From the NCBI RefSeq assembly GCF_004135385.1, contig NZ_CP035493.1, positions 3,353,440 to 3,417,439 on the forward strand: a stretch of 64,000 bases of DNA, given 5' to 3'. Positions 1 to 48,552 of the stretch are shown one piece after another. The position numbers and the translations under genes are program-made. Positions within the stretch are counted from its first letter, which is position 1, and the number at the start of each line of letters is the position of its first letter. Source of the DNA: Xylanimonas protaetiae (GTDB lineage: Bacteria > Actinomycetota > Actinomycetes > Actinomycetales > Cellulomonadaceae). The notes under the pieces are model-generated. The model was not told where the DNA came from. It saw nothing but the letters and a program-made list of their open reading frames with translations, and did no database searches.

Positions 1-210
1 GCCGTGCTCGAACGGCAGGGCGACGACCGCCCTCTCTCCCGCGCCTAGCGAGGCCGTCACCTCGTCGGCCCAGCGGCGGTCGGCGAACGTCGTGGTCGTG
101 GTGGCGACCACCAGCCCGGCGGCGACGGCGTCCGCGCCGGCGAAGGTCGCACGGTGCGCGGTGGCCGGGTCGGTCGCGAGGACGTCGCGGGGCTCGGTCA
201 CGGCGGTCAC
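1..210 (-). CDS. dhbC: Isochorismate synthase, N-terminal part (gene runs off the left edge)
   Basis: The first 70 codons are present, starting at GTG 210; the rest lies left of the window. The visible part ends with ERAVVALPFEHG, which resembles the early GALPF motif of EntC/DhbC isochorismate synthases. These enzymes convert chorismate to isochorismate, the first step to 2,3-dihydroxybenzoate. The start codon overlaps the stop of the preceding dehydrogenase as GTGA, so the two genes are probably translationally coupled. The assignment leans on that pathway neighbour, because the catalytic domain cannot be seen. A second GTG at 201 is an alternative start. Confidence 0.6.
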   Translation of the reverse strand, partial: MTAVTEPRDVLATDPATAHRATFAGADAVAAGLVVATTTTTFADRRWADEVTASLGAGERAVVALPFEHG

Positions 211-998
211 AGGGACGCACCCCCGTCGACGTAGACCTGCTGCAGGGTCACGTGGCGGGCGTCGTCCGACAGCAGGAAGCACACCAGGGCGGCGACGTCC
301 TCCGGGGCGCCGAGCCGGCCGAGCGGGATGCCGACGCGGAACCGCGCCGGGTCGCCGCCGATCGCGGCGGCGGCCCCGGTCTCGGCGTCCGGCCACAGGT
401 CGCGCTGCATCGCGGTGTCCGTGGAGCCGGGCTCGACGACGTTGCAGCGAATCCCCCGGGCGGCGAGCTCGAGCCCGGCGCAGCGGGTCAGCGCGGAGGT
501 CGCGGCCTTGGACGCGGCGTACGCGATCATCCCCGCCCGGGGCACGCGCGCCGCGTTGGAGCTGACGACGACGACGGAGCCGCCGTCGCGCATCGCGGTG
601 GTGCCGTGCCGCAGCACGTGGAGCACGCCGCTGGTGTTGACGGCGAGGTGGCGGTGCCAGGACTCGTCGGTGACCTCGGTGAGCCCGCCCGGCTCGAGGA
701 CGCCCGCCGCGGACGCGATCCCGTCGAGCGGGCCGAGCGCCGCGACCGCCGCGGTCACGGCGTCGCCGACGGCGCCGGGGTCCGCGACGTCCGCGGTGAG
801 CGCGAGCGCATGGCGCGCCCCTGCCGCCACGGCCTGCTCCGCCGTCGACGCGAGGCCCGCGACGTCCCGGTCGAGCAGCGCGAGCGCCGCTCCCGCGGCG
901 GCCAGCCGCAGGGCCGTCGCCCGCCCGATCCCCGACGCCGCCCCCGTCACCAGCACGGTCCCCGCCGTCCCGCCTGTCCTGCCACCTGCCACGTCCAT
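207..998 (-). CDS. dhbA: 2,3-dihydro-2,3-dihydroxybenzoate dehydrogenase (SDR family)
   Basis: This 263-residue short-chain dehydrogenase oxidises 2,3-dihydro-2,3-dihydroxybenzoate to 2,3-dihydroxybenzoate, the catechol unit of enterobactin- and bacillibactin-type siderophores. Visible are the nucleotide-binding TGAASGIG at residues 18-25, a catalytic serine in VVSSNAA, the YAASK tyrosine-lysine pair, and EntA/DhbA-type stretches NVVEPGSTDTAMQRDLW and GIPLGRL, ending in VDGGASL. ATG 998 is preferred to a GTG 54 bases upstream because GGGGAGAGG lies just before it. It overlaps the next gene (isochorismate synthase) by four bases. General SDR activity is certain; the DHB substrate is inferred from family motifs and neighbours. 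Confidence 0.85.
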   Translation of the reverse strand: MDVAGGRTGGTAGTVLVTGAASGIGRATALRLAAAGAALALLDRDVAGLASTAEQAVAAGARHALALTADVADPGAVGDAVTAAVAALGPLDGIASAAGVLEPGGLTEVTDESWHRHLAVNTSGVLHVLRHGTTAMRDGGSVVVVSSNAARVPRAGMIAYAASKAATSALTRCAGLELAARGIRCNVVEPGSTDTAMQRDLWPDAETGAAAAIGGDPARFRVGIPLGRLGAPEDVAALVCFLLSDDARHVTLQQVYVDGGASL

Positions 999-1082
999 CG
1001 ACCTCTCCCCGTCGTCTGCGGCGTCCGTCCCGACGCCTGTCGTCCCCTGCACGTGTCGTCCCGCGCCCGTCCGGGGCGCGGC

Positions 1083-1122: not shown

Positions 1123-3732
1123 TCAGCTCAGCGTGAGCGTCAGCACTGCCGCGTAGCCGCCCGGCGTGACCGTCGTCGGTGCCCGGAGCGTGAGCCCGGC
1201 GGCGACCTTGGCCGTGCCCCGGCCCGTGCCGGCCGCGGCCGACGCGAGCGGCGACGTGACGTCCAGCCCGGTCGCCTTCGCGGCGCCGGCCGCGACCACC
1301 TGGCCGGGGCTCGCGGAGAGCACCGACGGCGTCCAGCCGAGCGCCGAGCCAGGGAACGTCGCCGCGCCGGACGTGAAGTCCGAGACCTGGCCGACGAGGT
1401 TCCAGCCGACGTCGGCCGTGCGGACGTCCGCGACCGTGACGGTCGGGAGCGTGCCGTCCGCGACGAAGGCCTCGGCCGTGGCGTCGAGCTCGGCGGTGCC
1501 GAGGTCGGCCGTGGCGCCGCCGACCGAGAGCGTCAGCCCGCCCGCGGCCGGGATCTCGACGAGCACCTCGACAGCGGAGCTGCCGCCTTCCTCCCCGGGC
1601 TGGCCCGGCTCCCCTGGGCCCGCGTCGCCGGCGCTGATCTTCCACACCTTGTTGCCCGTCGCCTTGTCGACGACGTAGGCGTTGCCGAGGCCGTCGACGC
1701 TCACGTGGTTGGCGCGCGCGATCGGCAGGTTGGCCACCTTGGTGCCGTCCGCCTCCAGCACGGTCACCGTGGTACCGCCGAAGTTGGTGACGTAGACGAG
1801 GTGGTGCACCGGGTCGAAGGCGGTGTTGAGCGCGCCCGCCCCCGTGGGGATCTCGGCGAGCGTCGCGCCCGTGGTGGCGTCGGCGATGACGACGTCGTCG
1901 CTGTTCTGGCTGGCGATCCAGAGGCGGTTCGCGGCGGCGTCGTACGCGATGCCGGACGCGCCGCGACCACCCACGTCGATGCCCTCGACCGTCAGGAACG
2001 ACGTCTGAAGCGTCGTCGTGTCGACCTTGACGACCTTGTTGCTCGACAGGCTCGGCGAGACCAGCACGCCGTCGCTCAGCGCGAGCGACATGGGGCTGTA
2101 CTCGGCGCGGGGGCCGGTCGGGATGTCGGTGATCTTCTCGTACGGGGTGCCGTCGCCGTCGTTGTCGCCGCCCTCGAACACGGCGATGGAGCCGTCGCCC
2201 GTGGTGCCCTCGCTGGCCGAGCTGACGAAGACGCGGTCGGACCTCGGGTCGTAGACGACGTCGCGCGAGTGCGTGACGGTGCCGGCGGGGTGCTGCTTGA
2301 GCAGCGTGAGGTCGGCGGCCGAGTAGACGGCGACGGCGTTGGTGCGGGTGTTGGTCACCCACACGGTGCCGTGGACGTCGTCGACGCCGATGCCGTAGGG
2401 CGCGAGGCCGGCGGCACCGCTCGGGTCGGTGACGTCCTTCGGGTGGACCGAGCCGAGGACGGCGAGCGTGTCCGGGTCGACCTTGTACAGGTAGCCGTCC
2501 TCGGCGGCGCCGGTCCCGGCGGCCGCGGTGGCGAACAGGGCGTCCTCCGCGGCGCTGTAGGCCGACTGGTAGAGGCCCTGGGCGATGCCGTCGCCGTTCG
2601 ACGTCAGCGTGAAGCGGTCCTCGCCGCCGACCGGCGACGAGTCCGGCGAGATCTTCTGGCCGGGCAGGTCGAAGGTGCCGGCCGGGTTGGCGAGCGTCAC
2701 CGCGACGGGGTGGGTGCCGAGCGCGGCGTCCGCGGCGATCGAGTACGCGACCGTCGTCGCGCCCGCGGTGTCGGCGGCGGCAGGCAGGCCCGTGAAGGCG
2801 ACGTCGGCGCCTTCGAACGCGACCGACGCGACCGTGGAGCCGGCGGGCAGGTTCTTCAGGGTCAGCGAGCCCGAGGCGCCCTGCGCGAGGGCCGAGAAGG
2901 TGGCGGCGGGGGCGGTCGTGACCGCGCGCGTGATCGTGCCCGACGTCGGCCCGGTGAGGGTCACCGTGTGGGCGCCCGCGCGCAGCGTGCCCGGGGCGAA
3001 CACGAGCGTCGAGCCGGTCAGCGCGCCCGTGGCCGAGGCGGTGCCGCCCGCGGTCCACGCCTTGTCGGCGCCGTCGACCGTCGCCGTCAGAGCCTCGCCC
3101 GCGGCGAAGGTGCCGGCCGCGGCGGCGACGCTGAGCGTGACCTGGTCGGCGGGGGCGCCGCGGCCGCCGGCCGAGGCGTTGACGGTCACGGTGTCCGCGG
3201 TGACCGTGAACGTCACGTACACGGAGCGGGGGGTGTCGCCGCCGGGCTTCATCGAGCCCGACAGCAGCTGGAGGTGGTGGGTGCTGCCGGGCGCCCACGC
3301 CGCGGCGAGCGCCGGGCTGGTGGTGGCGGGCGTCGGGAACGGGACGTCGACGCTGAAGCCGCCGTCCGCGTCGGCCTGGATGCCGGTCCAGATGGCGGCC
3401 GTCGACGAGCCCGCGCCCGGGAAGGTGTAGCGGCCCGCGGCGGGCTCGACGGTCAGGACGTCGGCCTCGACGCCGCCCGCGGCGCCGAGCTTCACGGCGA
3501 TCCACGAGCCGGCGCCGTCCGGGGCGGTCCAGCCCGAGCCCTCGAGGTGGATCGCGTCGCCCACGGTGACGTTGTCGGCGACCGACACGGTCGCCGAGCC
3601 GCCCGCACCGGTGAGCCAGGTGCCCTGGTCGGCGAACGCGGGCGCCGCGGTGGTCAGGGCCGCCAGGCCCAGGATCGCCGCGAGCGCCCCCGCACCCACG
3701 CGAGCCGTCCGTCTCTGGACGGTGGTTGTCAT
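1123..3732 (-). CDS. Secreted beta-propeller protein with WxL-like C-terminal domain
   Basis: This 869-residue exported protein starts at ATG 3732 behind AAGGGGA. It has a signal peptide (about residues 1-35, ending APAFA), then a beta-rich Ig-like domain (about 38-190) ending LLSGSMKPGGDTPRSVYVTF. A second Ig-like stretch follows. Then come YVTN-like propeller repeats (VWVTNTRTNAVAVY, RLWIASQNSDDVVI, LVYVTNFGGTTVTVL) and a C-terminal domain containing GWNLVGQVSDF, LGWTPSV and a final GYAAVLTLTLS. That last domain matches the layout of WxL-type cell-wall-binding domains: a W-x-L core and a terminal strand. There is no LPXTG or membrane anchor, so wall attachment would be non-covalent. An iron box lies 20 bases upstream. 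Exact ligand is unknown; a role in iron, siderophore or heme capture is inferred from context. Confidence 0.75.
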   Translation of the reverse strand: MTTTVQRRTARVGAGALAAILGLAALTTAAPAFADQGTWLTGAGGSATVSVADNVTVGDAIHLEGSGWTAPDGAGSWIAVKLGAAGGVEADVLTVEPAAGRYTFPGAGSSTAAIWTGIQADADGGFSVDVPFPTPATTSPALAAAWAPGSTHHLQLLSGSMKPGGDTPRSVYVTFTVTADTVTVNASAGGRGAPADQVTLSVAAAAGTFAAGEALTATVDGADKAWTAGGTASATGALTGSTLVFAPGTLRAGAHTVTLTGPTSGTITRAVTTAPAATFSALAQGASGSLTLKNLPAGSTVASVAFEGADVAFTGLPAAADTAGATTVAYSIAADAALGTHPVAVTLANPAGTFDLPGQKISPDSSPVGGEDRFTLTSNGDGIAQGLYQSAYSAAEDALFATAAAGTGAAEDGYLYKVDPDTLAVLGSVHPKDVTDPSGAAGLAPYGIGVDDVHGTVWVTNTRTNAVAVYSAADLTLLKQHPAGTVTHSRDVVYDPRSDRVFVSSASEGTTGDGSIAVFEGGDNDGDGTPYEKITDIPTGPRAEYSPMSLALSDGVLVSPSLSSNKVVKVDTTTLQTSFLTVEGIDVGGRGASGIAYDAAANRLWIASQNSDDVVIADATTGATLAEIPTGAGALNTAFDPVHHLVYVTNFGGTTVTVLEADGTKVANLPIARANHVSVDGLGNAYVVDKATGNKVWKISAGDAGPGEPGQPGEEGGSSAVEVLVEIPAAGGLTLSVGGATADLGTAELDATAEAFVADGTLPTVTVADVRTADVGWNLVGQVSDFTSGAATFPGSALGWTPSVLSASPGQVVAAGAAKATGLDVTSPLASAAAGTGRGTAKVAAGLTLRAPTTVTPGGYAAVLTLTLS

Positions 3733-3750
3733 CCGAGTCCCCTTGCTTTG

Positions 3751-3769
3751 AAAGGTTAGCCTTACCTTG
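3751..3769. promoter_or_regulatory. Iron box (DtxR/IdeR-type operator)
   Basis: The 19 bases AAAGGTTAGCCTTACCTTG form a near palindrome closely matching the actinobacterial iron-box consensus TTAGGTTAGGCTAACCTAA. It sits 19 bases upstream of the WxL-like gene start, where a DtxR, IdeR or DmdR repressor loaded with iron would block transcription. Confidence 0.85.
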
Positions 3770-3830
3770 GTCGGATGAAATGTAGGCAAGACTTGTCCGT
3801 TTGTGCAACGGTGCCGTACGTCACACCGCG

Positions 3831-4877
3831 TCAGCGCGGGCCGGAGCGTGCGCGGCCGGTCCCCAGCAGCCACGCGAGGTACACCCCGCCGACCAGCCCC
3901 GTGACCACCCCGACCGGCAGGACCACGGGCGCGAGCGCCCGCTGGGCGACGACGTCGGACGTCACGAGCAGCAGCGCCCCCAGGGCCGCCGCGGCCCCCG
4001 CTCCCGCCCCGGACCCGCGCGTCAGGCGGCGGGCGAGCTGCGGCGCCGCGAGCGCGACGAACCCCACCGGGCCGGCCGCAGCCGTGCCGGCCGCGGCCAG
4101 CGCGATCCCCACGACCACCGCGCCCAGGCGCGCCCGGGGCACGTCGACGCCGAGCGCGGCGGCCAGGTCGTCGCCGAGGTCGAGCAGCGCGAGCGTCCGC
4201 TGGGCGGCCAGCGCGACGGGCAGGAGGACGCCCACGGCGACGAGCAGCGGCACGGCGGTCTCCCAGCCCCGGGCGTCGAGGCTGCCGACCAGCCACGTCT
4301 GCGCGGCGGTGGCGTCCCCGAGCGAGGCGCGCGTCAGCAGGTAGCCGTTGGCCGAGGTGAGGACCGCCGCGGTGCCGATGCCGACGAGGACGAACCGGTG
4401 CCCCGTCGTCGTGCCCCCGGACGACGAGAGCGCGAGCACCGCCAGCGCGCACGCCAGGCCGCCCGCCAGCGCACCGCCGGCGACGGCGGCCGTGCCGCCG
4501 CCCAGCACGACGATCGCGACGAGGGCGCCGGTCGCGGAGCCCGCCGTGAAGCCGACGACGTCCGGGCTGCCGAGCGGGTTGCGGGTCAAGGACTGGAACA
4601 GCGCCCCGGAGGCGCCGAGGGCGGCCCCGACGACGGCACCGGTGACGAGGCGCGGCAGCCGCAGCCCGACGACGACGAGCTGCGTGCGCTGGTCGCCGCC
4701 GCCGAGCAGCGCGGCCAGCACCTCGGCCGGCGACGTCGGGACGTCGCCCACGACGAGGCCGAAGAGCACGACGCCCAGCAGCGCTCCGAGCACCGACGCC
4801 GTGACGACGGCGGTCCGGGCGCGTCGCCGTGCCGCGAGCCGGGCCGCCAGCCCCGCCACGGGCGGGACCGCGCTCAT
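3831..4877 (-). CDS. FecCD-family siderophore/heme ABC transporter permease (FepG-like)
   Basis: This 348-residue integral membrane permease has the FecCD signatures LRLPRLVTGAVVGAALGASGALFQ (split here by position: about residues 63-86), TRNPLGSPDVVGF and, near the end, GPVGFVALAAPQLARRL followed by LPVGVVTGLVGGVYL. It should pair with the second permease to form the membrane channel for Fe-siderophore or heme. ATG 4877 is chosen because CAGGAG precedes it and it overlaps the stop of the upstream permease as ATGA. It is the last gene of a four-gene minus-strand operon (DUF916, sortase, two permeases). No ATPase subunit is encoded in the visible part of the locus. Confidence 0.9.
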   Translation of the reverse strand: MSAVPPVAGLAARLAARRRARTAVVTASVLGALLGVVLFGLVVGDVPTSPAEVLAALLGGGDQRTQLVVVGLRLPRLVTGAVVGAALGASGALFQSLTRNPLGSPDVVGFTAGSATGALVAIVVLGGGTAAVAGGALAGGLACALAVLALSSSGGTTTGHRFVLVGIGTAAVLTSANGYLLTRASLGDATAAQTWLVGSLDARGWETAVPLLVAVGVLLPVALAAQRTLALLDLGDDLAAALGVDVPRARLGAVVVGIALAAAGTAAAGPVGFVALAAPQLARRLTRGSGAGAGAAAALGALLLVTSDVVAQRALAPVVLPVGVVTGLVGGVYLAWLLGTGRARSGPR

Positions 4878-5946
4878 GCGGGGCTCCTGCGCGGCGAGAC
4901 CTGTGCGCCCCGCGGGCGCCTCGGCCACGGTCCACGCCGTCGTCGCCCCGGCCGCCGTCGCACGAGATGGACGAACACGGGCCCGCCGACCGCGGCGACG
5001 ACGATGCCGACCTCGAGCTCGCCCGGCCGTGCGACGACGCGGCCGACGAGGTCGGCGGCGAGCACGAGCACTCCCCGCCGAGCGCGGAGAGAGCGGTGAC
5101 CCAGCGTTGGGAGGACGGCGCCCACCGGCGCACCACGTGGGGGACGGTGAGCCCGACGAACCCGATCGGTCCGGCGGCGGCGGTCGCCGCGCCGCACACG
5201 AGCATGATCGCGAGGACGCCGAGCGCGTGCACCAGCCGCAGGTGCACGCCGAGGGCCTGCGCGACGTCGTCGCCGAGCGCGAGCGAGTCGAGCGCGCGCC
5301 CGAGCCCGACGGCGAGGAGCAGCCCGACGGCGACGAACGGGGCCACGCCGCTCAGCACGGCGGACCCGCGCCCCTCGAGCGACCCGACCGCCCAGAAGCG
5401 GAACGAGTCGAAGGCGGCGGGGAACGACAGCACCAGCCCCTGGGTGGCCGCGACGAGCGCCGCGCTGATCGCGGTGCCCGCGAGCACGGTGCTCGTGGGG
5501 CTTCCCGGGTCGGACCCGCGCCGCGCCAGCGCCTGCACCAGCACGGAGGCCACCATCGCCCCGGCCATCGCCCACGCGACGGTGTCGACGACGGTGGTCG
5601 CGAGGGACAGCGCGAGGCCGACGGCGACGAAGACGGCCGCGCCCGCGTTGACGCCGAGCAGCCCGGGGTCGGCCAGCGGGTTGCGCGTGAGGGCCTGCAT
5701 GAGAGCGCCCGCGGCACCGAGCGCGAGCCCGACCACGACGGCGAGGAGCGTCCGCGGCAGCCGCAGCTCCCAGACGAGGGCGTGCTCGGCCGTCCCGCCG
5801 CGCAGCGCGTCGAGCACGTCCGCGACGGGGACGGGCCGCGAGCCGACCAGCAGGCCGAGCGCCATGAGCACCAGGAGCGCGGCGACCAGCCCGGCCGCGG
5901 CGAGGACCGCACGGCCCGTGCGACGGGCCGTCGGCACGGCGCTCAC
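4874..5946 (-). pseudogene. FecCD-family ABC permease (FepD-like), frameshifted
   Basis: From GTG 5946 the frame reads a FecCD permease: ELRLPRTLLAVVVGLALGA, TRNPLADPGLLGVNAG, then AAGPIGFVGLTVPHVVRRW. After codons for SALGG, near the run of four C on the plus strand at 5073-5076, the frame is lost. One frame over, the expected ending GVLVLAADLVGRVV and GELEVGIVVAAVGGPVF continues to a stop at 4874. Adding a single G restores one 357-residue protein of normal length. Both ends overlap neighbours by four bases (GTGA with sortase, ATGA with the next permease), which supports the repaired frame. Either a real -1 mutation or a sequence error; if real, the permease lacks its last helices. Confidence 0.85.
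5073..5076 (-). other. Frameshift site in the FepD-like gene
   Basis: On the minus strand the run reads CTCGGCGGGGAGTGCTC. Five G in place of four would join the two halves of the permease into one frame. This is the first of three similar -1 sites in the island. Confidence 0.75.
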
Positions 5947-7432
5947 CCGCCCACCGCCCGCCCTGCCGGTCCGGCCTCTGCCAGCTCCGCCTCGACCACC
6001 AGGCGGTTCGTGCTCCCGCCCAGCGAGTAGTCGCACGTGACGAGGGTGAGCTGCGACGTCGTCGGGACGGCCTGCGGCCGGTCGCGGACGGGCAGCAGCA
6101 CCGACACGGCCGCGGGCGGGACGACGCGCGTCCCCGTCACCGTGTACGTCCAGGTGCCCTGCGGGGTCTCGAAGCGGATCTCGTCGCCCGCGACGAGCTC
6201 GTGCAGGTCGACGAACGGGGCGCCGGCGCCGGAGCGCGCGTTGTGCCCGGCGACGACGACGTTGCCGACCTGCCCCGGCAGGGCGGTCCCCGGGTAGTGC
6301 CCGGGACCGCGGCGGAGCTGCTCGGGCACGACCCCTTCGACGACGGCGAGCTGCAGGCCGTCGAGCGCGGGGATCCGCAGCACCCCGACGAGGTCGCCCG
6401 TCACGGGCTCGGCAGGAGCGGCAGGGGTCTCGTCGGACGTGAGGGCCGGGGCGAACCCGGCGAGCAGCGCGGCCTGCGCCCGCTCGGCGCGGCTGTGCTC
6501 GAGCCACCGCGTCAGCCCCCAGTGCCCGGCGACGACGAGCGCGCCGACGAGCGCCGTGACGGCCACGGCGCGCAGCACCCGCCGGCGCAGCAGCAGCCAG
6601 GCCGCGAGGAACAGCACGACGGCCGCGGGGACCACCGGCCAGGACTCCACCTCGGCGACGAACACCGACCCGTGGTCGGCCGGGTCGAGCTCGCCGTGCA
6701 GCACGTACGCGCCCGCGAGCGGCGCGGGGACGCGCACGACGAGCTCGCGGGTGAGCGCGTCGCCCGGGTCGACCGCGGCGACGTCGAGCCGCCCGACCAC
6801 CTCGCCGCCCAGGGAGTCGCGCCCCGCGACGACGTCGACCGTGCGTGCCGTCGACGCGAGGTCCCCGGCGTTCTGCACCGTGACGGCGACGCGGTAGTCC
6901 GCGGGACCCCCGAGCGCCGCGACCACCGCACCGCGCCAGCCGCCCACCCGCTCCGCGGCCGCAGCGACCACGAGCCGCGAGGTCGGCACCACGGTCATCG
7001 GCCGGGGCGCGACGGCGCCGGTCGCGACGTCGGGGACCACGACGGGCAGCGTCGCGGTCACCTGCCCGGTCAGGGTCGTGGCCCGCACCACGCACGGGCA
7101 CGACGACGGCGGGGCCACGCCCAGCAGCGTCCCGGTCCCGGTCCCGTCCTCGCCGACGACGACCACCGTCGACTGCGCGGTCGCGCAGTCCGCGGACCCG
7201 GCGGCGGCCCCCGCCCCGCATAACGCCACCGAGACCACGCCGGCCGGCCAGCCGGCGAGCGTGACGTCGACCGGCTGCCCGACGCGCACCTCGGTCACGG
7301 CGACCTGCACGGTGGGGGCCGGGGTGGCCGGGGCCGGGACGGGCGGGTCGGCGGCGCTCGCGGCGCGACCCCCGCCGCGAGGCCGACGACGACGAGCACC
7401 GCGGTGAGGGCTGCGCGCCGGCGCACGGTCAT
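5943..7432 (-). CDS. Membrane sortase with N-terminal neocarzinostatin-like domain (signal peptide frameshifted)
   Basis: The C-terminal ~150 residues are a sortase: catalytic histidine in VVVAGHNAR, cysteine in LTLVTCDYSLGG and arginine in STNRLVV. Ahead of it are two hydrophobic segments (VVPAAVVLFLAAWLLL and AVAVTALVGALVVAGHW), a middle beta-rich domain, and an N-terminal Ig-like/neocarzinostatin-like domain with paired cysteines (VALCG...SADC). ATG 7432 overlaps the DUF916 stop as ATGA and encodes a good signal peptide (MTVRRRAALTAVLVVVGLAA), but in another frame. Adding one G to the run at 7369-7373 joins them into a 496-residue protein. As written, the catalytic frame has no credible start. 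Probable substrate: the LPQTG protein encoded divergently. Confidence 0.8.
7369..7373 (-). other. Frameshift site in the sortase signal-peptide region
   Basis: The minus strand carries five G in GCGGGGGTCGC. A sixth G would connect the signal peptide read from ATG 7432 to AASAADPPVPAPAT and the rest of the sortase. This is the second -1 site in the island. Confidence 0.7.
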
Positions 7433-8553
7433 GCCCGGTCACCGGAGGGCGCGTCCGCCGCCGCCGGCTCACCACCCGACGTCTCCGCCGTGTCACCACC
7501 CGACGCCGCCGCCGCGAGCCGCTCCTGCAGCTCCGCGACCTGCCGTGCCGTCGCGCGGCGCCGTCGCACCGCCCGCACCACGAGCCACCCGAGGGCGGCG
7601 AGCAGCGCGAGCGCCAGGAGCGCGACCCACGGGAACGCGTGCAGCGTCGCGGTGAACGGCACGGCCGTGACGGCGGCCACGCGGCCGGTCGCGTCGACCG
7701 GCTGGAGCGAGCCGGTGAGCGTCAGCAGCACGGCGGCCGGCACGCCGTGCAGGGTCGCGGTCTGCTCGACGGCGCTCCCGGGCAGCAGCTCGGGCAGCGC
7801 GGGCCCGGCGGCGTCCGCCGCGCCCCAGCCGAGGACGCCGTCGACGGCGACGTGCTGGGTGCCGGTCAGGCGCAGGTTCCCGGTGTTTGTCACCGTCCAC
7901 GTCACCTCGACGTCGCCGTCGAACGGGTTCCAGAAGCTGCCCGTGCGGTGTGCGCGCACGTCGCCCACCTGGAGGCGCGGCACCAGGTCGCCGGTCACGG
8001 AGAGGTAGGTGCGGGCGGCGACGCGCGCGTCGACGACCACCTGCTCCCCGGTGCCCGTGGTGCGCACGCTCGGCAGCGAGGTGACGATGCCGCCCACGTG
8101 GTCGCCCGGGGTGGCGTTCGCGGGGATCGTGATGTGGAACGGGACGTCGACGCGCGACCGGGCGGGGAGCGTCAGCGTCCCGTCGGGCGCCACGTCCGGG
8201 GAGTCGAACGTGGTCCAGGCGCCGACGTCCTGGGGTTCCTGCGCGCTGGCGAGCAGGTCGAAGTCGCCGCTCGCCGCGGTGCGGGCGTCAGTGGCGAAGA
8301 CCCGCAGGGTGATCTCCTGCGTCGAGAGGTTCGTGATGCCGACGACGTCGGAGACCACGGCCCCCGGGGCCGCCTCGAGCACGAAGTAGGGCCGCTGGCC
8401 GGGTCCTCCTTGCCCGGAGGGCGCCACCTGCCACGTCGTGGGCGCGGGTTCGGCGGCGGGGGTGTCGTCGGCGACGGCGGGTGCCGCGAGGGCCAGGAGC
8501 GCCGCGGCCACGGCGAAGGTGGGCGCGAGGGTGCGGCGGACGATCGTGCGCAA
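7429..8553 (-). CDS. DUF916 (WxL-interacting protein) family membrane-anchored protein
   Basis: This 374-residue protein matches the DUF916/WxL-interacting family. It has a signal peptide (to about residue 29, APAVADD) and a beta-sandwich region with NLSTQEITLRVFATDA, then VPFHITIPANATPGDHVGGIVTSL and VTNTGNLRLTGTQ. A C-terminal membrane helix (FPWVALLALALLAALGWLVV) is followed by a basic, coiled tail. In Firmicutes such proteins form cell-surface complexes with WxL proteins and small LPXTG proteins; here both partner types are adjacent. TTG 8553 is chosen because AGGAG lies six bases before it; a GTG at 8589 is possible. It is the first gene of the sortase-permease operon. Confidence 0.8.
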   Translation of the reverse strand: MRTIVRRTLAPTFAVAAALLALAAPAVADDTPAAEPAPTTWQVAPSGQGGPGQRPYFVLEAAPGAVVSDVVGITNLSTQEITLRVFATDARTAASGDFDLLASAQEPQDVGAWTTFDSPDVAPDGTLTLPARSRVDVPFHITIPANATPGDHVGGIVTSLPSVRTTGTGEQVVVDARVAARTYLSVTGDLVPRLQVGDVRAHRTGSFWNPFDGDVEVTWTVTNTGNLRLTGTQHVAVDGVLGWGAADAAGPALPELLPGSAVEQTATLHGVPAAVLLTLTGSLQPVDATGRVAAVTAVPFTATLHAFPWVALLALALLAALGWLVVRAVRRRRATARQVAELQERLAAAASGGDTAETSGGEPAAADAPSGDRA

Positions 8554-8633
8554 GGGGTGCTCCTGGTCGGTTCTCACGGTGGGTCTCACCGCGGGTCTCG
8601 CGGTGGCGGACGATGAGCATGGTCCGCTGAAGG

Positions 8634-8652
8634 TGAGGTTAGGCTAACCAAC
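8634..8652. promoter_or_regulatory. Iron box overlapping a -10 element of the FepB-like gene
   Basis: TGAGGTTAGGCTAACCAAC matches the iron-box consensus closely. It contains the -10-like hexamer TAGGCT (8640-8645), seven bases before GTG 8653, so the fepB-like mRNA is probably leaderless and repressed directly by iron-loaded DtxR/IdeR. The divergent DUF916 operon starts 81 bases away and may share the site. Confidence 0.85.
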
Positions 8653-9678
8653 GTGTCCAACCCTCATCGCCGCCGTCTCACCGCGGGGAGCCGCCGCGTC
8701 GCCGCCGCCCTCGTCGCCGTCGTCGCCCTCCTCACGGCCTGCTCCCCGGCACCGGGGGCGTCGTCCTCGGCGCCGACGCGGACCGTGACCGACGCCCGGG
8801 GCCGGGAGGTCGACATCCCCGTCGCCCCCGCCCGGGTGGTCACGCTGAGCGAGCCCACCACGGACGCCGCGTTCGCCATCGGCGTGGTGCCCGTCGGGGC
8901 CACGGCGGCGCGCGGGCAGGCGGCCCGGCTCGCGGGCTACCTGCCCGCGGAGGCGGCGGACGTCACGGTCGTCGGCAGCCTCGGCTCGCCGCAGCTCGAG
9001 CAGCTCGTGGCGCTCGGCCCTGACCTCATCCTCACCGACGGCACCGCCGTCAACGACGACGTCCTCCTCGGCAAGCTGCAGGCCATCGCGCCCACCCTCT
9101 GGGTCGGCGAGGCCGGCAACACCGACTGGCAGGCCGGGCTGCGCGCCGTCGGCGACGCCCTCGGCAAGGCCGACGCCGCGACGGCGTTCGTCACGAGCTA
9201 CGACGCCGAGGCCGCCCGGGTCCGCGACGGGCTCGGCGCGAACGCCGGCGCGCGGGTGTCGATCGTGCGCTGGGGACTGTCCACCGGCGCGTTCCTGCCG
9301 CAGAGCACCTTCCCCGCGAAGATCCTCGCCGACCTCGGGCTGACCCGCCCGGCCGGCCAGGACGTCGCGGGCAACGGCCACTCCGAGCAGGTCAGCGCCG
9401 AGAACGTCGGCGTGCTCGACGGCGACTGGATGTTCTTCTGCACCCTCGGCGGCGCGGCCGGACCCGAGACGGCCGCCGACGGCGGCGGGGCCACCGGCGT
9501 CGCCGCGAGCGAGGCCGCCCTGGCCACGGCCGCCGCACGGGCGGTCGGCTTCACCGACCTCACGGCCTACCGGTCCGGGCGCGTCGTGCCCGTCGACGGC
9601 AGCGCCTGGGGCAGCGCCGGCGGGCCGCTGGCCGCCTGGCAGATCCTCACCGACGTCGACGACAACCTCGTCGGCTGA
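8653..9678 (+). CDS. Iron-siderophore/heme ABC transporter substrate-binding lipoprotein (FepB/FecB-like)
   Basis: This 341-residue lipoprotein has an N-terminal signal with lipobox LLTAC, a mature start TVTDARGREVDIPVAPARVV, and the bi-lobed periplasmic-binding fold of cluster-8 binding proteins (VVGSLGSPQLEQLVALGPDLILTD in the first lobe; ARVSIVRWG opening the second). It should capture the ferric siderophore or heme outside the membrane and deliver it to the two FecCD permeases encoded divergently. GTG 8653 directly follows an iron box and has no ribosome-binding site, suggesting leaderless expression. It is 23 bases upstream of the LPQTG protein gene. The ligand cannot be read from the sequence. 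Confidence 0.9.
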   Translation: MSNPHRRRLTAGSRRVAAALVAVVALLTACSPAPGASSSAPTRTVTDARGREVDIPVAPARVVTLSEPTTDAAFAIGVVPVGATAARGQAARLAGYLPAEAADVTVVGSLGSPQLEQLVALGPDLILTDGTAVNDDVLLGKLQAIAPTLWVGEAGNTDWQAGLRAVGDALGKADAATAFVTSYDAEAARVRDGLGANAGARVSIVRWGLSTGAFLPQSTFPAKILADLGLTRPAGQDVAGNGHSEQVSAENVGVLDGDWMFFCTLGGAAGPETAADGGGATGVAASEAALATAAARAVGFTDLTAYRSGRVVPVDGSAWGSAGGPLAAWQILTDVDDNLVG

Positions 9679-9701
9679 CCACCCCACCCCTGGAGCTCTT
9701 C

Positions 9702-10402
9702 GTGAAGACCCTTCGTGCCCGTCGCGCCGTCGGCGCGCTCGCCCTCGCCGCGGCCACCGTCCTCGCCGGCGCCGTCGCCGGCCCGCAGCACGCCGCGCAG
9801 GCGGCCGAGTGCACCACGCCCCGCGCCGACAGCCCGTCCGGGGCCACGCTCACGGTGACCTCGGGCGTCGTCGCGCCCGGCGGGACCGTCGCCGTGACCG
9901 GGACCGGGTTCGAGCGCACCGACACCGACGGCCTCGGCCAGACGCTCGCGTTCAAGCTCAACGACCAGCTCCAGTGGTCCACGACGCTCAAGGCCGACGA
10001 CGACGGCGCGGTCTCCGGCACGCTCAGCCTCGCCGACCTGCCCGCCGACGACGTGGCCACGGTCGTGGACGCCGCGTGCGGCAAGGCGTGGGTCCGCGTC
10101 CTCGTGGGCTCGAGCGCCCCGGGGACATGGCGCCGAACCGCTCCGTGCACGCCATGTTCGAGATCGCGGCCGCGGCCGCGGCGGACCCGACGCCTGGCCC
10201 GACGCCGACGGCGGCGCCCACGAGCGGCGGCACGAGCGGCGGCACGACGAGCGCCGCGGCCGCGGCGGGCGGGCAGCTCCCCCAGACCGGCATCGAGGAC
10301 GCCCCGGCGGTCGCGTGGGTCGCCGGGCTGCTCGCCGTCGCCGCCCTGGCGTTCGCCGCGGACCGCGGGCTCCGCCGCCGAGCGGGCCGGGCGCGCGCCT
10401 GA
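9702..10402 (+). pseudogene. Small LPQTG wall-anchored surface protein, frameshifted
   Basis: GTG 9702 follows TGGAG. It encodes a signal peptide (to AAQAAE) and an Ig-like domain with GGTVAVTGTGFERTDTDG. At the GGGG run 10121-10124 the frame shifts. One frame over lie DMAPNRSVHAMFEI, a Gly/Pro/Thr linker, the sorting signal LPQTG, a hydrophobic span (AVAWVAGLLAVAALAFAA) and an RRRAGRARA tail, ending at 10402. One extra G restores a 233-residue protein. The rejoined stretch GSSAPGDMAPNRSV resembles GSMKPGGDTPRSV in the WxL-like protein, which supports both the repair and a shared domain. As written, the protein would be cut before its wall anchor. It is the likely substrate of the nearby sortase. 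Confidence 0.8.
10121..10124 (+). other. Frameshift site in the LPQTG protein gene
   Basis: CCCCGGGGACATGG would need five G to keep the frame from SSAPG into DMAPNRSV. This is the third -1 site in the island, again at a short G run. Confidence 0.75.
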
Positions 10403-10423: not shown

Positions 10424-11110
10424 TCAGCGGCCGGGGCCGGCGATCTCCAGGTCGTCCGCGACGTGCTGGGCCATGAGGAGCGCCGCGCGCTCGGCGTCGC
10501 CGGCCTCGATGGCGGCGAGGATCTGGCCGTGGTCGTGGCGGCGGCTCTCCTCGCCCGAGGCGTAGATCACCACGCCCAGGCTGATGACCTTCCGCAGGGC
10601 GGCGAGCACACCCGCGTAGGCGTCGGGCAGCAGGCGCGTGCCCGTGGCCTCGAAGACGAGCGCGTGGAACTCCTGCGGCGTCCGGCCCTGCTCTCGCTCG
10701 GCGGGCGCCCCTGCGCCGAGCCGGTCGTTCGCCTCGTGCGCCGCCCGGAGCCGCGCGACGTGGTCGTCGGTGCGGTGCCGCGCGGCGAGGCGGGCCGCCT
10801 CGACCTCGAGACCCCGGCGGTAGGCGAGCACCTCGGCGAGCTCGTAGTCGTGGACGGACTCGGCGAGCACCGCAGCCACGGGCGTGCGGGCGCGCACGTA
10901 GGTGCCGCGTCCCGGCAGCGTCTCGAGCATCCCCATGCTCGCGAGCGACCGGACGGCCTCACGGACCGTCATCTTGCCGACGCCGAGGAGCTCCATGAGC
11001 TCGGTCTCGACCGGGATGCGGGAGCCGACGGGCCACTCCCCCGACGTGATGCGCCGTCGCAGGTACGCGAACGCGCGACGGGCACGGTCAGATCCGGACG
11101 AGGTGTTCAT
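10424..11110 (-). CDS. FadR-type GntR transcriptional regulator
   Basis: The 228-residue protein has an N-terminal winged helix-turn-helix (YLRRRITSGEWPVGSRIPVETELMELLGVGKMTVREAVRSLASMGMLETLPGRGTYV, about residues 16-73) and a C-terminal all-helical FCD effector domain with metal-site-type histidines (QEFHALVFEATG, DHGQILAAIEAGD, MAQHVADDL). Such regulators respond to small carboxylates or sugars. ATG 11110 was chosen; an in-frame GTG at 11128 is possible. It lies 49 bases downstream of the siderophore-interacting protein on the same strand and converges on the LPQTG gene. Target genes cannot be deduced. Confidence 0.85.
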   Translation of the reverse strand: MNTSSGSDRARRAFAYLRRRITSGEWPVGSRIPVETELMELLGVGKMTVREAVRSLASMGMLETLPGRGTYVRARTPVAAVLAESVHDYELAEVLAYRRGLEVEAARLAARHRTDDHVARLRAAHEANDRLGAGAPAEREQGRTPQEFHALVFEATGTRLLPDAYAGVLAALRKVISLGVVIYASGEESRRHDHGQILAAIEAGDAERAALLMAQHVADDLEIAGPGR

Positions 11111-11159
11111 CGCGGCCGATTCTGGCACACGCCCTCCGCGGGGCGCGGGGACACGCGCC

Positions 11160-12011
11160 TCAGTCGTCCCCGAGGTCGACGGCGTGGTGGTCGAGGCCCG
11201 CCTCGCCGCGCTTCCAGTAGCCGTCCACGTGGACCTGCGCCCTCGGCAGGCCGAGCTCGTGGCGCAGGTACTGGCGCACGGGCCGCATCGCGGTGGCCTC
11301 GCCGGCCGCGAAGGCGAACCAGTCGTCGTCCTGCGGCGGCGTCCAGGCCCGCAGCGCGCGCTCGAGCCGGTCCGCCTCCGGGTGCGCGCCGCGGTGCACC
11401 CAGACGATCTCGACGCCCTCGCGCGACGCGATCCGCTGCTCCTCGGCCGCGTCCTCGACCTCGAGGATCGCGGTGGCCCGCGCGCCGTCCGGCAGCTCCT
11501 CCAGCAGGCGGGAGATCGCGGGCAGGGCCGTGGCGTCGCCGACGGCGAGGTAGCAGGGGTAGCCGTGCGGGAAGAGCACGTTGCCGCGCGGGCCGAGCAC
11601 CCCGAGGCCGTCCCCGGGCCGCGCGGACGAGGCCCATCGGCTCGCGACGCCGTGCCCGTGGAGCACGAGGTCGAGCGTGAGCTCGCGGGCCTCGGCGTCC
11701 CAGGCCCGCACGGTGTAGTCCCGCACGGCCGGGCGGGTCCCGTCCGGGTTCCGCAGCCCGCCGGGGCCCGGCTGGGGCAGCAGGAGCTCGCCGGTCGCCG
11801 GGTCCGGGAACACGACCTTGACGTGGTCGGTCGGCGCGAGGTCCGCCCACGGGAAGCCCGCGTCGAGGTCGGCGCCGCCCAGCACGACCCGGCGGTAGCG
11901 CGGCGTCACGTCCTCGACGCGCACGACGTGCAGGACGCGGCGTCCCAGCGTGCCGACGGGACGACGCACGACGGCGCGCGCGTCACGGTCCAGGGCAGGT
12001 GTGGTGGTCAC
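11160..12011 (-). CDS. Siderophore-interacting protein (flavin-dependent ferric-siderophore reductase)
   Basis: This 283-residue protein belongs to the SIP/ViuB family, which uses NAD(P)H and FAD to reduce iron in imported ferric siderophores and so release it in the cytoplasm. Visible are the FAD-binding barrel motif VRDYTVRAWD (R-x-Y-[TS]), the DLVLHGHGVASRWA segment, the nucleotide region YLAVGDATALPAISRLLEELP, and the family C-terminus HVDGYWKRGEAGLDHH. GTG 12011 faces the divergently transcribed esterase, and an iron box lies between them. Together they form the intracellular unloading step for the siderophore system. Confidence 0.92.
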   Translation of the reverse strand: MTTTPALDRDARAVVRRPVGTLGRRVLHVVRVEDVTPRYRRVVLGGADLDAGFPWADLAPTDHVKVVFPDPATGELLLPQPGPGGLRNPDGTRPAVRDYTVRAWDAEARELTLDLVLHGHGVASRWASSARPGDGLGVLGPRGNVLFPHGYPCYLAVGDATALPAISRLLEELPDGARATAILEVEDAAEEQRIASREGVEIVWVHRGAHPEADRLERALRAWTPPQDDDWFAFAAGEATAMRPVRQYLRHELGLPRAQVHVDGYWKRGEAGLDHHAVDLGDD

Positions 12012-12044: not shown

Positions 12045-12063
12045 TTAGGAAAGCCTTCCCTAT
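12045..12063. promoter_or_regulatory. Probable iron box between the reductase and esterase genes
   Basis: TTAGGAAAGCCTTCCCTAT is a palindromic variant of the iron-box consensus with conserved TTAGG, AG, CT and TA positions. It lies in the 64-base divergent promoter region, 13 bases before the esterase ATG, so one site could control both genes. Confidence 0.7.
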
Positions 12064-12075
12064 AGCCTGCACCGC

Positions 12076-13389
12076 ATGGTCTCCCCGTTCGCGACCCCGC
12101 CCGCCGGGGCGTCCGCCCGCGCGCTCTCGATCCCGCCGCACGTCGCACGCCCCGCCGCGGTCCCCCACGGCCGGTCCGCGCGCGTCGAGGCGCTGCGGGC
12201 CGCCCTGGCGGCCGGCGCCGGCAGGGACGCCGTCGAGGCCTTCTGGGCGGAGGTCACGGAGCGCGGCACGCCGCTCGTCGAGGGCACGGGACCCGTCCGG
12301 GACTACACGTTCGTGCACCGCGGCGCCGCGCGGCGGGTCGCCGTCGTGGTCAACAAACTCGTCGACGACACGACCTTCACCGAGGCGCTGCTCGAGCCCG
12401 TCGCGGGCACCGACGTCTGGGCCCTGACGCTGCGCCTGGGGGCCGGCTGGCGCGGCAGCTACACGCTCGCGGTCGACGACGGCGGCGCCCCGTCGGTCAC
12501 GGCGTCCGCGCAGGCCGTCCTCGAGCAGCGACGGGCACGGTCGCGCGCGGTCACGGAGCCCGAGCGGCACGCCGCCGTCGACGCGTGGTACGACCTGCTC
12601 CTCCACACCCGGCCCGACCCGCACGCACGGGAGCGCGGGCGGCAGGGTTCGGTCGCGTCCGGACCCGAGGCGCCGCGGCCGGTGCCGCTGCTGCCGGCAC
12701 CGCGCGCCGGGCGGCTCGTGCCCGTCCGCGGCGGACCGCGGCCGGCGTGGTGGCACGTGCCCGCGGTCGAGCCAGGCCCGGACGGCTGGGACGTCCTGGT
12801 GCTGCTCGACGGTGAGCAGCGGGTCGCCGGCGAGACGGCGACCCTCGACGCGTGGTCCGCCTCGGGCGTCCTGCCGCCCACGGCCACGCTGCTGCTGGGC
12901 CACGGCCCCCTGGAGGACCGCGTCGCGGACCTCACCTGCAACCCGCGCCTGGTCGCCGACGTCCTGCGGCTGGTCGACGACGCCCCCGGCACGCTCGGCG
13001 CCCCCGTGACCCGCAACCCGAGGCGCACGACCATCGCCGGGCAGTCGCTCGGCGGGCTCACGGCCCTCTACGCCCAGTGCCTCGCGCCGGACCGGTTCGG
13101 CGTCTCCGTGTGCCAGTCCGGGTCGCTGTGGTGGCCCAACCCCGCCGGGGGCGAGCCGGCCGAGTGGCTCACGCGCACGATCGCCCGCTCCGGCGTCCGG
13201 CTGGGGCGGGTCCACCTCGAGGTGGGGCGTGGCGAGTGGGTGCTGCTCGAGCCGACGCGCCGCCTGCGGGCGGTCCTGGCCGACCGGTGCGAGGCCCTCC
13301 GCTACGAGGAGTACGACGGCGGCCACGACGCGGCCTGCTGGGAGACCAGCCTGCCCCACGCGCTACGTCGTGTCACGGCGGCGCGGTGA
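12076..13389 (+). CDS. Enterobactin/catecholate siderophore esterase (Fes-like)
   Basis: The 437-residue hydrolase has an N-terminal Fes-type domain with DYTFVHRG and LLEPVAGTDVWALTLRL, then an alpha/beta-hydrolase esterase-D domain with the nucleophile elbow TTIAGQSLGGLTALY, VCQSGSLWW and the catalytic histidine in YDGGHDAACW. Fes enzymes cleave the trilactone backbone of ferric catecholate siderophores after import, which lowers affinity and allows iron reduction. This agrees with dhbA/dhbC in the same island. ATG 12076 follows the iron box. No signal peptide is seen, so it should be cytoplasmic. Confidence 0.9.
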   Translation: MVSPFATPPAGASARALSIPPHVARPAAVPHGRSARVEALRAALAAGAGRDAVEAFWAEVTERGTPLVEGTGPVRDYTFVHRGAARRVAVVVNKLVDDTTFTEALLEPVAGTDVWALTLRLGAGWRGSYTLAVDDGGAPSVTASAQAVLEQRRARSRAVTEPERHAAVDAWYDLLLHTRPDPHARERGRQGSVASGPEAPRPVPLLPAPRAGRLVPVRGGPRPAWWHVPAVEPGPDGWDVLVLLDGEQRVAGETATLDAWSASGVLPPTATLLLGHGPLEDRVADLTCNPRLVADVLRLVDDAPGTLGAPVTRNPRRTTIAGQSLGGLTALYAQCLAPDRFGVSVCQSGSLWWPNPAGGEPAEWLTRTIARSGVRLGRVHLEVGRGEWVLLEPTRRLRAVLADRCEALRYEEYDGGHDAACWETSLPHALRRVTAAR

Positions 13390-16068: not shown

Positions 16069-16134
16069 GCGCTCCGGCGTCTCTCGGCGGCGGCAAACCC
16101 GCTGGCGAGGCGGACGACACAAACTTACGGTGGC

Positions 16135-46790: not shown

Positions 46791-48539
46791 ATGACGACCC
46801 TCGCGACCCCACCGCCCCCGGGTGGCGCCGTGCAGCCCTCCTTCGAGGACCTGGGCACCCCGCTGCGGGACGTGACGTTCGTCGTCGTCGACCTCGAGAC
46901 CACCGGCACGCGCGCCGGCGACTGCGGCATCACCGAGATCGGCGCGGTCAAGGTGCGCGGCGGCGAGGTGCTGGGCGAGTTCCAGTCGCTCGTGAACCCC
47001 GGACGCGAGGTGCCGGCGTTCGTCGCCCGCCTCACGGGGATCACGACGGCCATGGTGTCCACCGCGCCGGCGATCGACCTGGTGCTGCCGAGCTTCCTGG
47101 AGTGGGCGCACGGCTGCGTGCTCGTCGCGCACAACGCGCCCTTCGACGTCGGGTTCCTCAAGGCCGCCGCGAAGGAGCTCGGCTACCCGTGGCCGGGCTT
47201 CCCGGTCGTCGACACCGTGCCGCTCGCACGGCGCGTCGTCACGCGGGACGAGGCACCCAACCACAAGCTCTCGACGCTCGCGAACCTCTTCCACGCCCAG
47301 GTCACGCCCGACCACCGCGCGCTGGCCGACGCGCGCGCCACGGTCGACGTGCTCCACGCCCTGTTCGACCGCCTGGGCACGATGGGTGTCCAGCATCTGG
47401 AGGACCTCGCGACGGCGGCGGACCCGGTGCCGCCGGACGTGCGCAGGAAGCGGCACCTCGCGGACGGCCTGCCCGAGGCTCCCGGCGTCTACCTGTTCAA
47501 GGGTCCCGGCGACGAGGTGCTCTACGTCGGCACGTCCACCAACATCCGCAAGCGCGTGCGCTCGTACTTCACGGCCGCCGAGAAGCGCCGGCGCATCACG
47601 GAGATGGTGCGCATCGCGGACAAGGTCACGCCCGTCGTGTGCGCGACGCCGCTCGAGGCCGCCGTGCGCGAGCTGCGGCTCATCACCGAGCACGAGCCGC
47701 GCTACAACCGGCGGTCCAAGCACCCTGAGCGGCACACGTGGGTGCGCCTCACCGACGAGCCGTACCCCCGCCTGTCCGTGGTGCGCGAGGTCCGCGCGGG
47801 CGCCCCGCACATCGGCCCGTTCGGCTCGCGGCGCGTCGCGCAGGACGCCGTCGACGCGCTGCACGACGCCCTCCCCCTGCGGCAGTGCTCGCTGCGCCTC
47901 GCGGTCGTCTCACGCACGCCGGGCAGCCCGTGCGCGCTCGCCGGCATGGGCCGCTGCTCGGCCCCGTGCGTCGCCGTCGCCGCCCCCGACGGCGCGTACG
48001 CGGCGGTCGCCGCGGCCGCCGCCGGGGTTCTCCAGGGCGACCCGTCCCCCGTGGTCGAGGCGCTGGCCGCCCGTATCGGCCGCCTCGCCGCCGAGGAGCG
48101 GTTCGAGGAGGCCGGGCAGGTCACCGGCCGGCTGCGGGCCTACGTCCAGGGCGCTGGACGCGCCCAGCGCCTCGCCCCGCTGGCCGCGTGCGCCGAGCTC
48201 GTGGCCGCCCGTCCGACGGCCGCAGGCGGGTGGGAGCTCGTCGTGGTGCGCCACGCCCGGCTCGCCGGGACGGCCGTGACCCGGCCGGACGATGACCCGC
48301 TGCCCGTCGTCGCCGCTCTGCGGGCGACCGCCGAGACGGTCGACCCGCCGGTGCCGCCCGCGCCCGCGTGCCACCCCGAGGAGGCCGCGCTGGTCATCGA
48401 CTGGCTGGAGTCTCCCGGCGTCCGGCTGGTGCACACCAGCGAGCCGTGGGCGGTCCCCGTGCGGTCCGCGCTCTCGCACGCCGACCTCGCGGGTGTCTCG
48501 GGCGAGGTCAGGGCGCAGATCACGACGGCGCTCGACTAA
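46791..48539 (+). CDS. DEDDh exonuclease fused to a GIY-YIG nuclease (UvrC/Cho-like)
   Basis: The 582-residue protein joins two nucleases. Residues 25-200 form a DnaQ-like 3'-5' exonuclease with VVVDLETTG (ExoI), VAHNAPFDVGFL (ExoII) and HRALADARATVDVLHAL (ExoIII). Residues 220-350 form a UvrC-type GIY-YIG domain: EAPGVYLFKGPGDEVLYVGTSTNIRKRVRSYF, then ELRLITEHEPRYNRR. A cysteine pair region GRCSAPC and a UvrB-binding-like stretch follow. Such fusions (Rv2191) are standard in Actinobacteria and are thought to act in excision repair. TAGCGT lies seven bases before the ATG. Confidence 0.9.
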   Translation: MTTLATPPPPGGAVQPSFEDLGTPLRDVTFVVVDLETTGTRAGDCGITEIGAVKVRGGEVLGEFQSLVNPGREVPAFVARLTGITTAMVSTAPAIDLVLPSFLEWAHGCVLVAHNAPFDVGFLKAAAKELGYPWPGFPVVDTVPLARRVVTRDEAPNHKLSTLANLFHAQVTPDHRALADARATVDVLHALFDRLGTMGVQHLEDLATAADPVPPDVRRKRHLADGLPEAPGVYLFKGPGDEVLYVGTSTNIRKRVRSYFTAAEKRRRITEMVRIADKVTPVVCATPLEAAVRELRLITEHEPRYNRRSKHPERHTWVRLTDEPYPRLSVVREVRAGAPHIGPFGSRRVAQDAVDALHDALPLRQCSLRLAVVSRTPGSPCALAGMGRCSAPCVAVAAPDGAYAAVAAAAAGVLQGDPSPVVEALAARIGRLAAEERFEEAGQVTGRLRAYVQGAGRAQRLAPLAACAELVAARPTAAGGWELVVVRHARLAGTAVTRPDDDPLPVVAALRATAETVDPPVPPAPACHPEEAALVIDWLESPGVRLVHTSEPWAVPVRSALSHADLAGVSGEVRAQITTALD

Positions 48540-48552
48540 CTACAGTGGACCC

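Follow-up and report, generated by a model that had tools for sequence, protein, structure and literature searches.

A locus of Xylanimonas protaetiae that may couple a WxL/DUF916-docked YncE-type propeller to siderophore import

The locus considered here occupies positions 1123 to 10402 of a 64,000-nucleotide stretch of the actinobacterium Xylanimonas protaetiae (contig NZ_CP035493.1). The whole stretch, referred to below as the window, corresponds to C1:3353440-3417439 of a 3.86-Mb single-contig genome. We propose, with moderate confidence, that the locus encodes a system, repressed by iron, for the uptake of a 2,3-dihydroxybenzoate (DHB; catecholate) siderophore, probably the strain's own, in which a secreted beta-propeller protein is docked in the cell wall via a WxL-DUF916 pair and hands its ligand to a FepB-FecCD importer. 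The proposal draws on gene content, iron-box-like sites, adjoining siderophore genes and the recurrence of each half of the locus in other genomes, all read from sequence, and from these we infer siderophore binding by the propeller, the hand-off, the sharing of an ATPase and the substrate of the sortase. The predicted features of the locus are as follows.

1123..3732, minus strand: secreted YncE-type propeller protein with a WxL-like C-terminus (residues about 720-869), from profile matches
3751..3769: iron-box-like site 5' of the propeller gene, 5 mismatches to a 19-bp consensus
3831..4928, minus strand: FecCD permease (PF01032 2.2e-72, 244.2 bits)
about 4874..5930, minus strand: second FecCD permease, in two frames (C-terminal piece PF01032 1.1e-7, 31.6 bits)
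5943..about 7430, minus strand: ectodomain, two hydrophobic stretches and a class E-type sortase (PF04203 3.7e-29)
7429..8553, minus strand: DUF916/WxLIP (WxLIP_PGBD) membrane protein (PF06030 5.9e-12, 46.1 bits, cut-off 27.3)
8634..8652: iron-box-like site between the DUF916 and FepB-like genes, 3 mismatches
8653..9678, plus strand: FepB-like siderophore-binding lipoprotein (PF01497 2.3e-15, 57.1 bits)
9702..10402, plus strand: small LPQTG surface protein, in two frames (LPXTG anchor models match below cut-off)

All of these components had been listed in an earlier sequence-only reading and they are borne out by profiles or by frame reading, the latter, together with a match to relatives, being the means by which the N-terminal piece of the second permease was recognised. 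The minus-strand frames of the DUF916, sortase and permease genes abut or overlap, in keeping with the single overlapping unit proposed in that reading. The best-scoring model for the window permease is that of an enterobactin permease (NF007759), and the best NCBIfam class for the sortase is class E (NF033747 9.6e-39, 133.4 bits, cut-off 160). Six sortase matches occur in the genome, so the local enzyme need not be the sole one. The ectodomain preceding it (6585-7358) was matched, among 221 genomes of the family, in the strain's own genome only, and a structure model of the sortase fusion (pLDDT 42.4) was too poor and was not used.

The propeller protein consists, in order, of a signal peptide, an N-terminal module for which no Pfam match was found, the YncE-type propeller and the WxL-like C-terminus. 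The propeller matches NF052280 at 2.1e-18 over residues 382-668, its 66.2 bits falling short of the equivalog cut-off of 400, and structurally it matches the YncE-type fold better than other propellers; the fold comparison gave nothing pointing to another fold. No entry for XusB, a Bacteroides surface propeller considered below, occurs among the best 50 structure matches listed, and DUF4374, the XusB family, is absent from the Pfam matches at E up to 1. Three residues, R463, H488 and Q609 (window numbering), are kept in 13, 14 and 15, respectively, of 15 aligned siderophore-linked propellers, and Escherichia coli YncE differs at these positions. For the C-terminus, a whole-protein search yielded PF13731 at E 0.0015 (19 bits). 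It carries one WNL, preceded by D-x-R; when 27 such C-termini, 8 of which match PF13731 at E up to 0.01, are aligned, Asp-x-Arg and Gly-Trp-x-Pro are invariant. A comparison of the WxL profile with solved structures gave matches at chance level only. Thus, of the two families predicted from the letters alone, DUF916 was recovered above its Pfam cut-off and WxL was matched below it.

Iron boxes were scored against a 19-bp sequence that we take to be the DtxR/IdeR-type consensus. No site as good as 8634-8652 arose in 100 shuffles. With up to 5 mismatches allowed, as in all the counts that follow, eight boxes were found in 117.9 kb comprising the window (four) and the propeller-bearing loci L037 (two), L042 (one) and L043 (one), with the further propeller loci L040 and L041 left out of the count. 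Two of the window boxes precede the propeller and FepB-like genes, as expected from the earlier suggestion that iron boxes stand before the units outside the overlapping operon, and the fourth, at 16125, is without a known link. Six first-order simulations of the window yielded no box, other stretches of the strain's own genome gave two in 63.0 kb, and 52 other DUF916 loci gave none in 934.8 kb. Eight DUF916 loci described below as heme operons carry 16 boxes in 159.2 kb, with at least one in all eight, counted per locus and not per gene.

The genes that flank the locus point to a siderophore. Within the window they are the following.

207..1052, minus strand: EntA-like 2,3-dihydro-2,3-dihydroxybenzoate dehydrogenase, the first complete gene of the window (TIGR04316 275.2 bits, cut-off 300)
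10424..11128, minus strand: GntR/FCD regulator (PF07729 and PF00392)
11160..12011, minus strand: siderophore-interacting protein, SIP (PF04954 9.3e-38)
12045..12063: iron-box-like site between the SIP and esterase genes, 5 mismatches
12076..13389, plus strand: enterochelin-esterase-like protein, Fes (PF11806 1.3e-18; NF007758 161 bits, cut-off 222)

To the left of the window lie, on the same strand, a gene for EntC/DhbC (TIGR00543 2e-73, 247.6 bits, cut-off 224.75) and, in addition, genes for EntE (TIGR02275 4.5e-183, 609.3 bits, below the cut-off of 723.55) and for a non-ribosomal peptide synthetase (NRPS) of EntF type with condensation, adenylation, peptidyl carrier and thioesterase domains. 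On predicted gene content, EntC, EntE, EntA and the EntF-type NRPS together are a 2,3-dihydroxybenzoate siderophore locus. Since the uptake locus adjoins these genes, the cargo is likely to be a ferric catecholate. The sequence-only reading had offered a ferric siderophore or heme. The heme-binding HtaA domain (PF04213) has no match in the strain's own genome, where a control search in Corynebacterium glutamicum was positive, and none among the window proteins, and heme is the less likely cargo for that reason. The link to iron is well supported by the boxes, the DHB genes and the loci that combine a propeller with FecCD permeases, and of the two cargoes the siderophore is favoured; heme as first choice was rejected given the lack of an HtaA match and the adjoining DHB genes.

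Each half of the locus recurs elsewhere. Among five actinobacterial propeller loci that were fetched, three carry the propeller near FecCD genes, namely L037 from the same family but another genus, L042 from Microbacterium fluvii and L040 from another family, each of them encoding a pair of FecCD permeases along with a FepC-type ATPase and further surface proteins. A FepB-like gene accompanies the propeller in L037 and L042, both of which also carry kin of the GntR/FCD regulator. No importer gene was seen within the stretch examined of L041, nor in the 10 kb before the propeller of L043, where a contig edge follows just after the propeller. Lacking its C-terminus, the propeller protein was detected in 2 of 221 genomes of the family at 1e-10, in 3 of 396 of the order at 1e-25 and in 1 of 396 of the phylum at 1e-35, the strain's own being included each time; these counts are lower bounds, with the top 2 to 5 candidates scored per genome, and one further scan of genome contigs gave two loci.

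A wider sample was provided by plasmids. A tblastn search of a plasmid collection with the propeller domain matched 31 records, of which 20 neighbourhoods were opened, usually 6 kb to each side, 17 being annotated and three without annotation. Siderophore-type genes lie beside the propeller in 13 of the 17 annotated neighbourhoods, a raw count with no matched control family, in which Paracoccus yeei and P. alcaliphilus each figure twice and two cases rest on sets of AMP ligase, carrier and NRPS genes whose product is unnamed. The genes counted encode TonB-dependent receptors (partly FepA-type), iron ATP-binding cassette (ABC) importers, DHB-AMP ligase, the AMP ligase-carrier-NRPS sets and Fes. 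In the clearest case, that of Roseomonas marmotae, genes for isochorismate synthase, a DHB-AMP ligase scoring above the TIGR02275 cut-off, isochorismatase, a carrier and NRPS follow the propeller gene. The positive loci (L051, L059-L063, L065-L067, L069-L071 and L074) derive from Proteobacteria and Streptomyces and carry the propeller gene near their middle. Judged by gene neighbourhood, these plasmids suggest a function for the YncE family.

The other half, the WxL-DUF916 pair, is common in the family. DUF916 relatives occur in 74 of 150 family genomes, the strain's own included, and 60 loci, mostly from the top of the list, were compared with flanks of up to about 10 kb, some of them lying at contig edges. 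A homologue of the window's C-terminal domain is present in 53 of the 60, which supports the earlier view of WxL and DUF916 as partners; at E 1e-6 the window sortase was matched in five, and neither the propeller nor the window's FepB-like protein in any. Eight loci from five genera (L083, L092, L094, L104, L107, L110, L130 and L135) contain a FecCD permease, and they share a gene set encoding a substrate-binding protein, permease, ATPase, surface protein, HtaA-like protein, WxL protein and DUF916 protein. The L110 ATPase exceeds the cut-off of a heme ATPase model (PRK13548, 307.9 versus 261 bits), and heme oxygenase genes lie near the L107, L110 and L135 operons. Within the WxL protein, HtaA exceeds the Pfam cut-off in two loci, L083 (2.1e-19) and L110 (2.9e-16), whereas the L104 match (0.0012) falls short of it, and tblastn with the L083 and L110 HtaA queries located it also in L094, L130 and L135; L092 and L107 show similarity to L104 proteins only, one of which has no Pfam match. 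From their gene content we read these eight loci as heme operons docked by WxL/DUF916. The earlier reading had noted that the csc clusters of Firmicutes are usually not combined with iron transport; in the present family a DUF916/WxL pair near iron transport is nothing unusual. The exact composition of the window locus, of which that reading knew no described example, was found only here: its halves recur separately and the whole was unseen in relatives.

Other arrangements also occur. One WxL-ended protein (L076:10665-13397), beside DUF916, has a ricin-type lectin domain, which implies that modules of more than one kind are attached to the WxL anchor in this family, and the other DUF916 gene of the strain's own genome (L048:6588-9598) adjoins a gene for a purple-acid-phosphatase-type protein, with no iron genes seen.

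WxL domains are known to dock with DUF916 proteins, and with this the following mechanism may be envisaged. Under iron limitation a repressor would leave the iron boxes and the propeller protein would be secreted, its WxL-like C-terminus docking with the DUF916 (WxLIP, WxL-interacting protein) membrane protein in the wall. The propeller would hold the ferric catecholate and deliver it to the FepB-like lipoprotein and the two FecCD permeases, powered by an ATPase supplied from elsewhere in the genome. The sortase would attach the LPQTG protein, adding another component to the surface, and inside the cell SIP and the Fes-like esterase would free the iron.

Several observations weigh against this scheme. 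The WxL-like C-terminal stretch, searched alone, matches PF13731 at 1.9e-4 with 21.9 bits against a Pfam cut-off of 25, and the second Trp-x-Leu motif of Firmicutes WxL domains is missing. L040 has no iron box at up to 6 mismatches and L041 has one with 6. No isochorismatase (EntB) was identified in the left flank, in which the stretch between NRPS and EntE (L039, about 11.5-12.3 kb) was not subjected to a profile search. Siderophore genes are absent from 4 of the 17 annotated plasmid neighbourhoods, those of Pararoseomonas, one Klebsiella pneumoniae plasmid, Streptomyces angustmyceticus and Roseomonas haemaphysalidis (a partial match). Neither WxL nor DUF916 was found in any of the four propeller loci tested (L037, L042, L040 and L041), so the importer does not depend on this pairing; the importer and surface propeller may constitute the wider unit, with WxL, DUF916 and sortase as this strain's means of fixation to the wall. 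That a siderophore is the ligand of a YncE-type propeller is itself something we infer, and the E. coli protein has been associated with single-stranded DNA binding (PMC5120174), while YncE genes are also found in XoxF/TonB clusters (PMC10875860). Finally, the FepC of a relative is unmatched in the first 14 kb of the window. Its best match in the genome lies at C1:3598970-3599743, and the FepC-type ATPase at L047:6830-7762 is 56% identical to that of L037. This region holds another FecCD-FecCD-ATPase-SBP (substrate-binding protein) operon, L047:4662-8970 (C1:3596661-3600969), with an iron box at L047:7851, and the FepC-type protein of that operon is probably the ATPase of the window importer.

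Two competing explanations are unlikely without being negligible. One is that the WxL, DUF916 and sortase genes represent an unrelated surface module, for adhesion or sugar binding, that lies there by chance, and that the propeller takes no part in transport. The 52 of 60 DUF916 loci that have no FecCD match nearby are consistent with this, as are the lectin-bearing WxL protein of L076 and the propeller loci that do without DUF916. Against it, propeller and WxL-like domain are parts of one protein, an iron box precedes the propeller gene, and elsewhere propellers accompany FecCD or siderophore genes.

The second is that the locus is decaying and its importer or sortase non-working. Apparent frame breaks, a further point against our proposal, occur near 5.07-5.13 kb in the second permease, near 7.37 kb at the sortase start and near 10.11 kb in the LPQTG gene, and three in one locus favour decay. 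The earlier sequence-only reading mentioned neither these breaks nor the missing local ATPase nor the biosynthetic genes to the left of the window. A codon-usage scan of the 64 kb detected the frame changes in the permease and in the LPQTG gene, in the latter without a stop codon; four other direct same-strand frame switches in the scan all fall at stop codons. The sortase break is based on frame reading, a signal-peptide-like stretch sitting in another frame. Frames and codon use are otherwise kept, however, and the G+C content of the region, 0.79 and 0.78, is among the highest of the window (34-36 kb also reaches 0.79), which makes sequencing errors plausible and indeed likely. Elsewhere in the window, the frame at 48292-48831 looks non-coding at its start and, by eye, resembles an Lrp/AsnC-type regulator at its end, possibly a further frame break.

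The remaining alternatives appear improbable. Propeller folds include lactonases, and the annotation of some plasmid homologues reads 'beta-propeller fold lactonase family', so that the propeller might be an enzyme opening the siderophore instead of a carrier; separate esterase genes, however, lie beside many propellers and in the window locus, and a second hydrolase is then less needed. We judge it similarly improbable that the propeller serves pyrroloquinoline quinone (PQQ) or a metal-cofactor complex, the siderophore neighbourhood reflecting shared iron control or TonB receptors. E. coli yncE is linked with YncD/PqqU, and the propeller weakly matches the PQQ-linked model TIGR03866. The YncE and TonB genes in XoxF clusters (PMC10875860) would also fit, but DHB biosynthesis and FepA-type receptor genes lie directly beside the propeller in several plasmid loci and here. 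Least probable of all is that propeller and DUF916 capture heme for the FecCD importer, since, for all the WxL/DUF916 heme-type operons in eight of the 60 loci, HtaA is unmatched, DHB-siderophore, Fes and SIP genes adjoin the locus, and the window permease resembles the enterobactin model where that of the L110 heme locus best resembles BtuC.

Taken as a wall-docked catecholate uptake system, the locus can be compared with several known ones. In the csc clusters of Firmicutes, CscA is a DUF916 WxLIP, CscB and CscC are WxL proteins and CscD is a small LPxTG protein. A DUF916 protein, a large secreted protein with a C-terminal WxL-like domain and an LPxTG protein are common to these clusters and the window (PMC1534035, PMC10599100). 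Peptidoglycan binding has been reported for the WxL domains of Firmicutes, an AlphaFold2 prediction has DUF916 inserting a strand into WxL, and WxL clusters have been defined by at least two WxL proteins near a WxLIP (PMC10599100). The window differs in having one WxL-like protein among the locus proteins scanned, with the second WxL motif changed, a WxLIP without a DUF3324 (HBD) match at E up to 1, and an added siderophore importer and sortase. A precedent for the proposed role is XusB, a seven-bladed surface propeller that binds ferric enterobactin (PMC13142918). The window protein would similarly be held at the surface in catecholate uptake, but XusB, a lipoprotein of the DUF4374 family, works with a TonB transporter, whereas the window protein is of YncE type, predicted to be docked in the wall and encoded beside an ABC importer. 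E. coli YncE, a lone propeller, shows increased levels in a fur mutant and has been detected in the supernatant and in vesicles (PMC5120174), and the window protein lies below the equivalog cut-off of its family.

Among importers, the window resembles FepBCDG-type systems in its FepB-like protein, two FecCD permeases, Fes and SIP, and differs in that no ATPase gene is present at the locus, the candidate lying in another FecBCD operon. The HtaA/HmuTUV heme uptake systems of Actinobacteria likewise combine a FecCD-class importer with surface capture proteins, and are the type joined to WxL/DUF916 in the eight loci above, but they involve heme and HtaA-type domains where the window has a propeller and siderophore genes. 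The Znu wall proteins of Corynebacterium diphtheriae are also wall-held metal-binding proteins working with an ABC importer; they concern zinc, and the accessible text of that report mentions no propeller or WxL (PMC12445094).

Each component family is known. The open-licence papers searched yielded no account of WxL together with HtaA or with siderophores, nor of the apparent joining of WxL/DUF916 anchoring to iron import in its siderophore and heme forms. To our knowledge, the crossing of the thick wall by a ferric siderophore to its lipoprotein receptor is far less described than the heme relays based on NEAT or HtaA. More tentatively than for the locus itself, we suggest that WxL/DUF916 is a reusable actinobacterial docking for iron capture, assembled separately with HtaA for heme and with YncE-type propellers for catecholates, and that YncE-type propellers may generally be extracytoplasmic ferric-catecholate carriers. 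If true, such a role would also explain E. coli YncE, and the neighbourhood data make the question of YncE function directly testable. The window locus and the eight WxL-bearing heme loci together suggest that iron capture makes use of a shared docking platform, which would give the WxL/DUF916 pair, known chiefly as machinery for host binding in Firmicutes, a role in nutrient transport, and they hint that one solution for moving iron through a thick cell wall may be reused.

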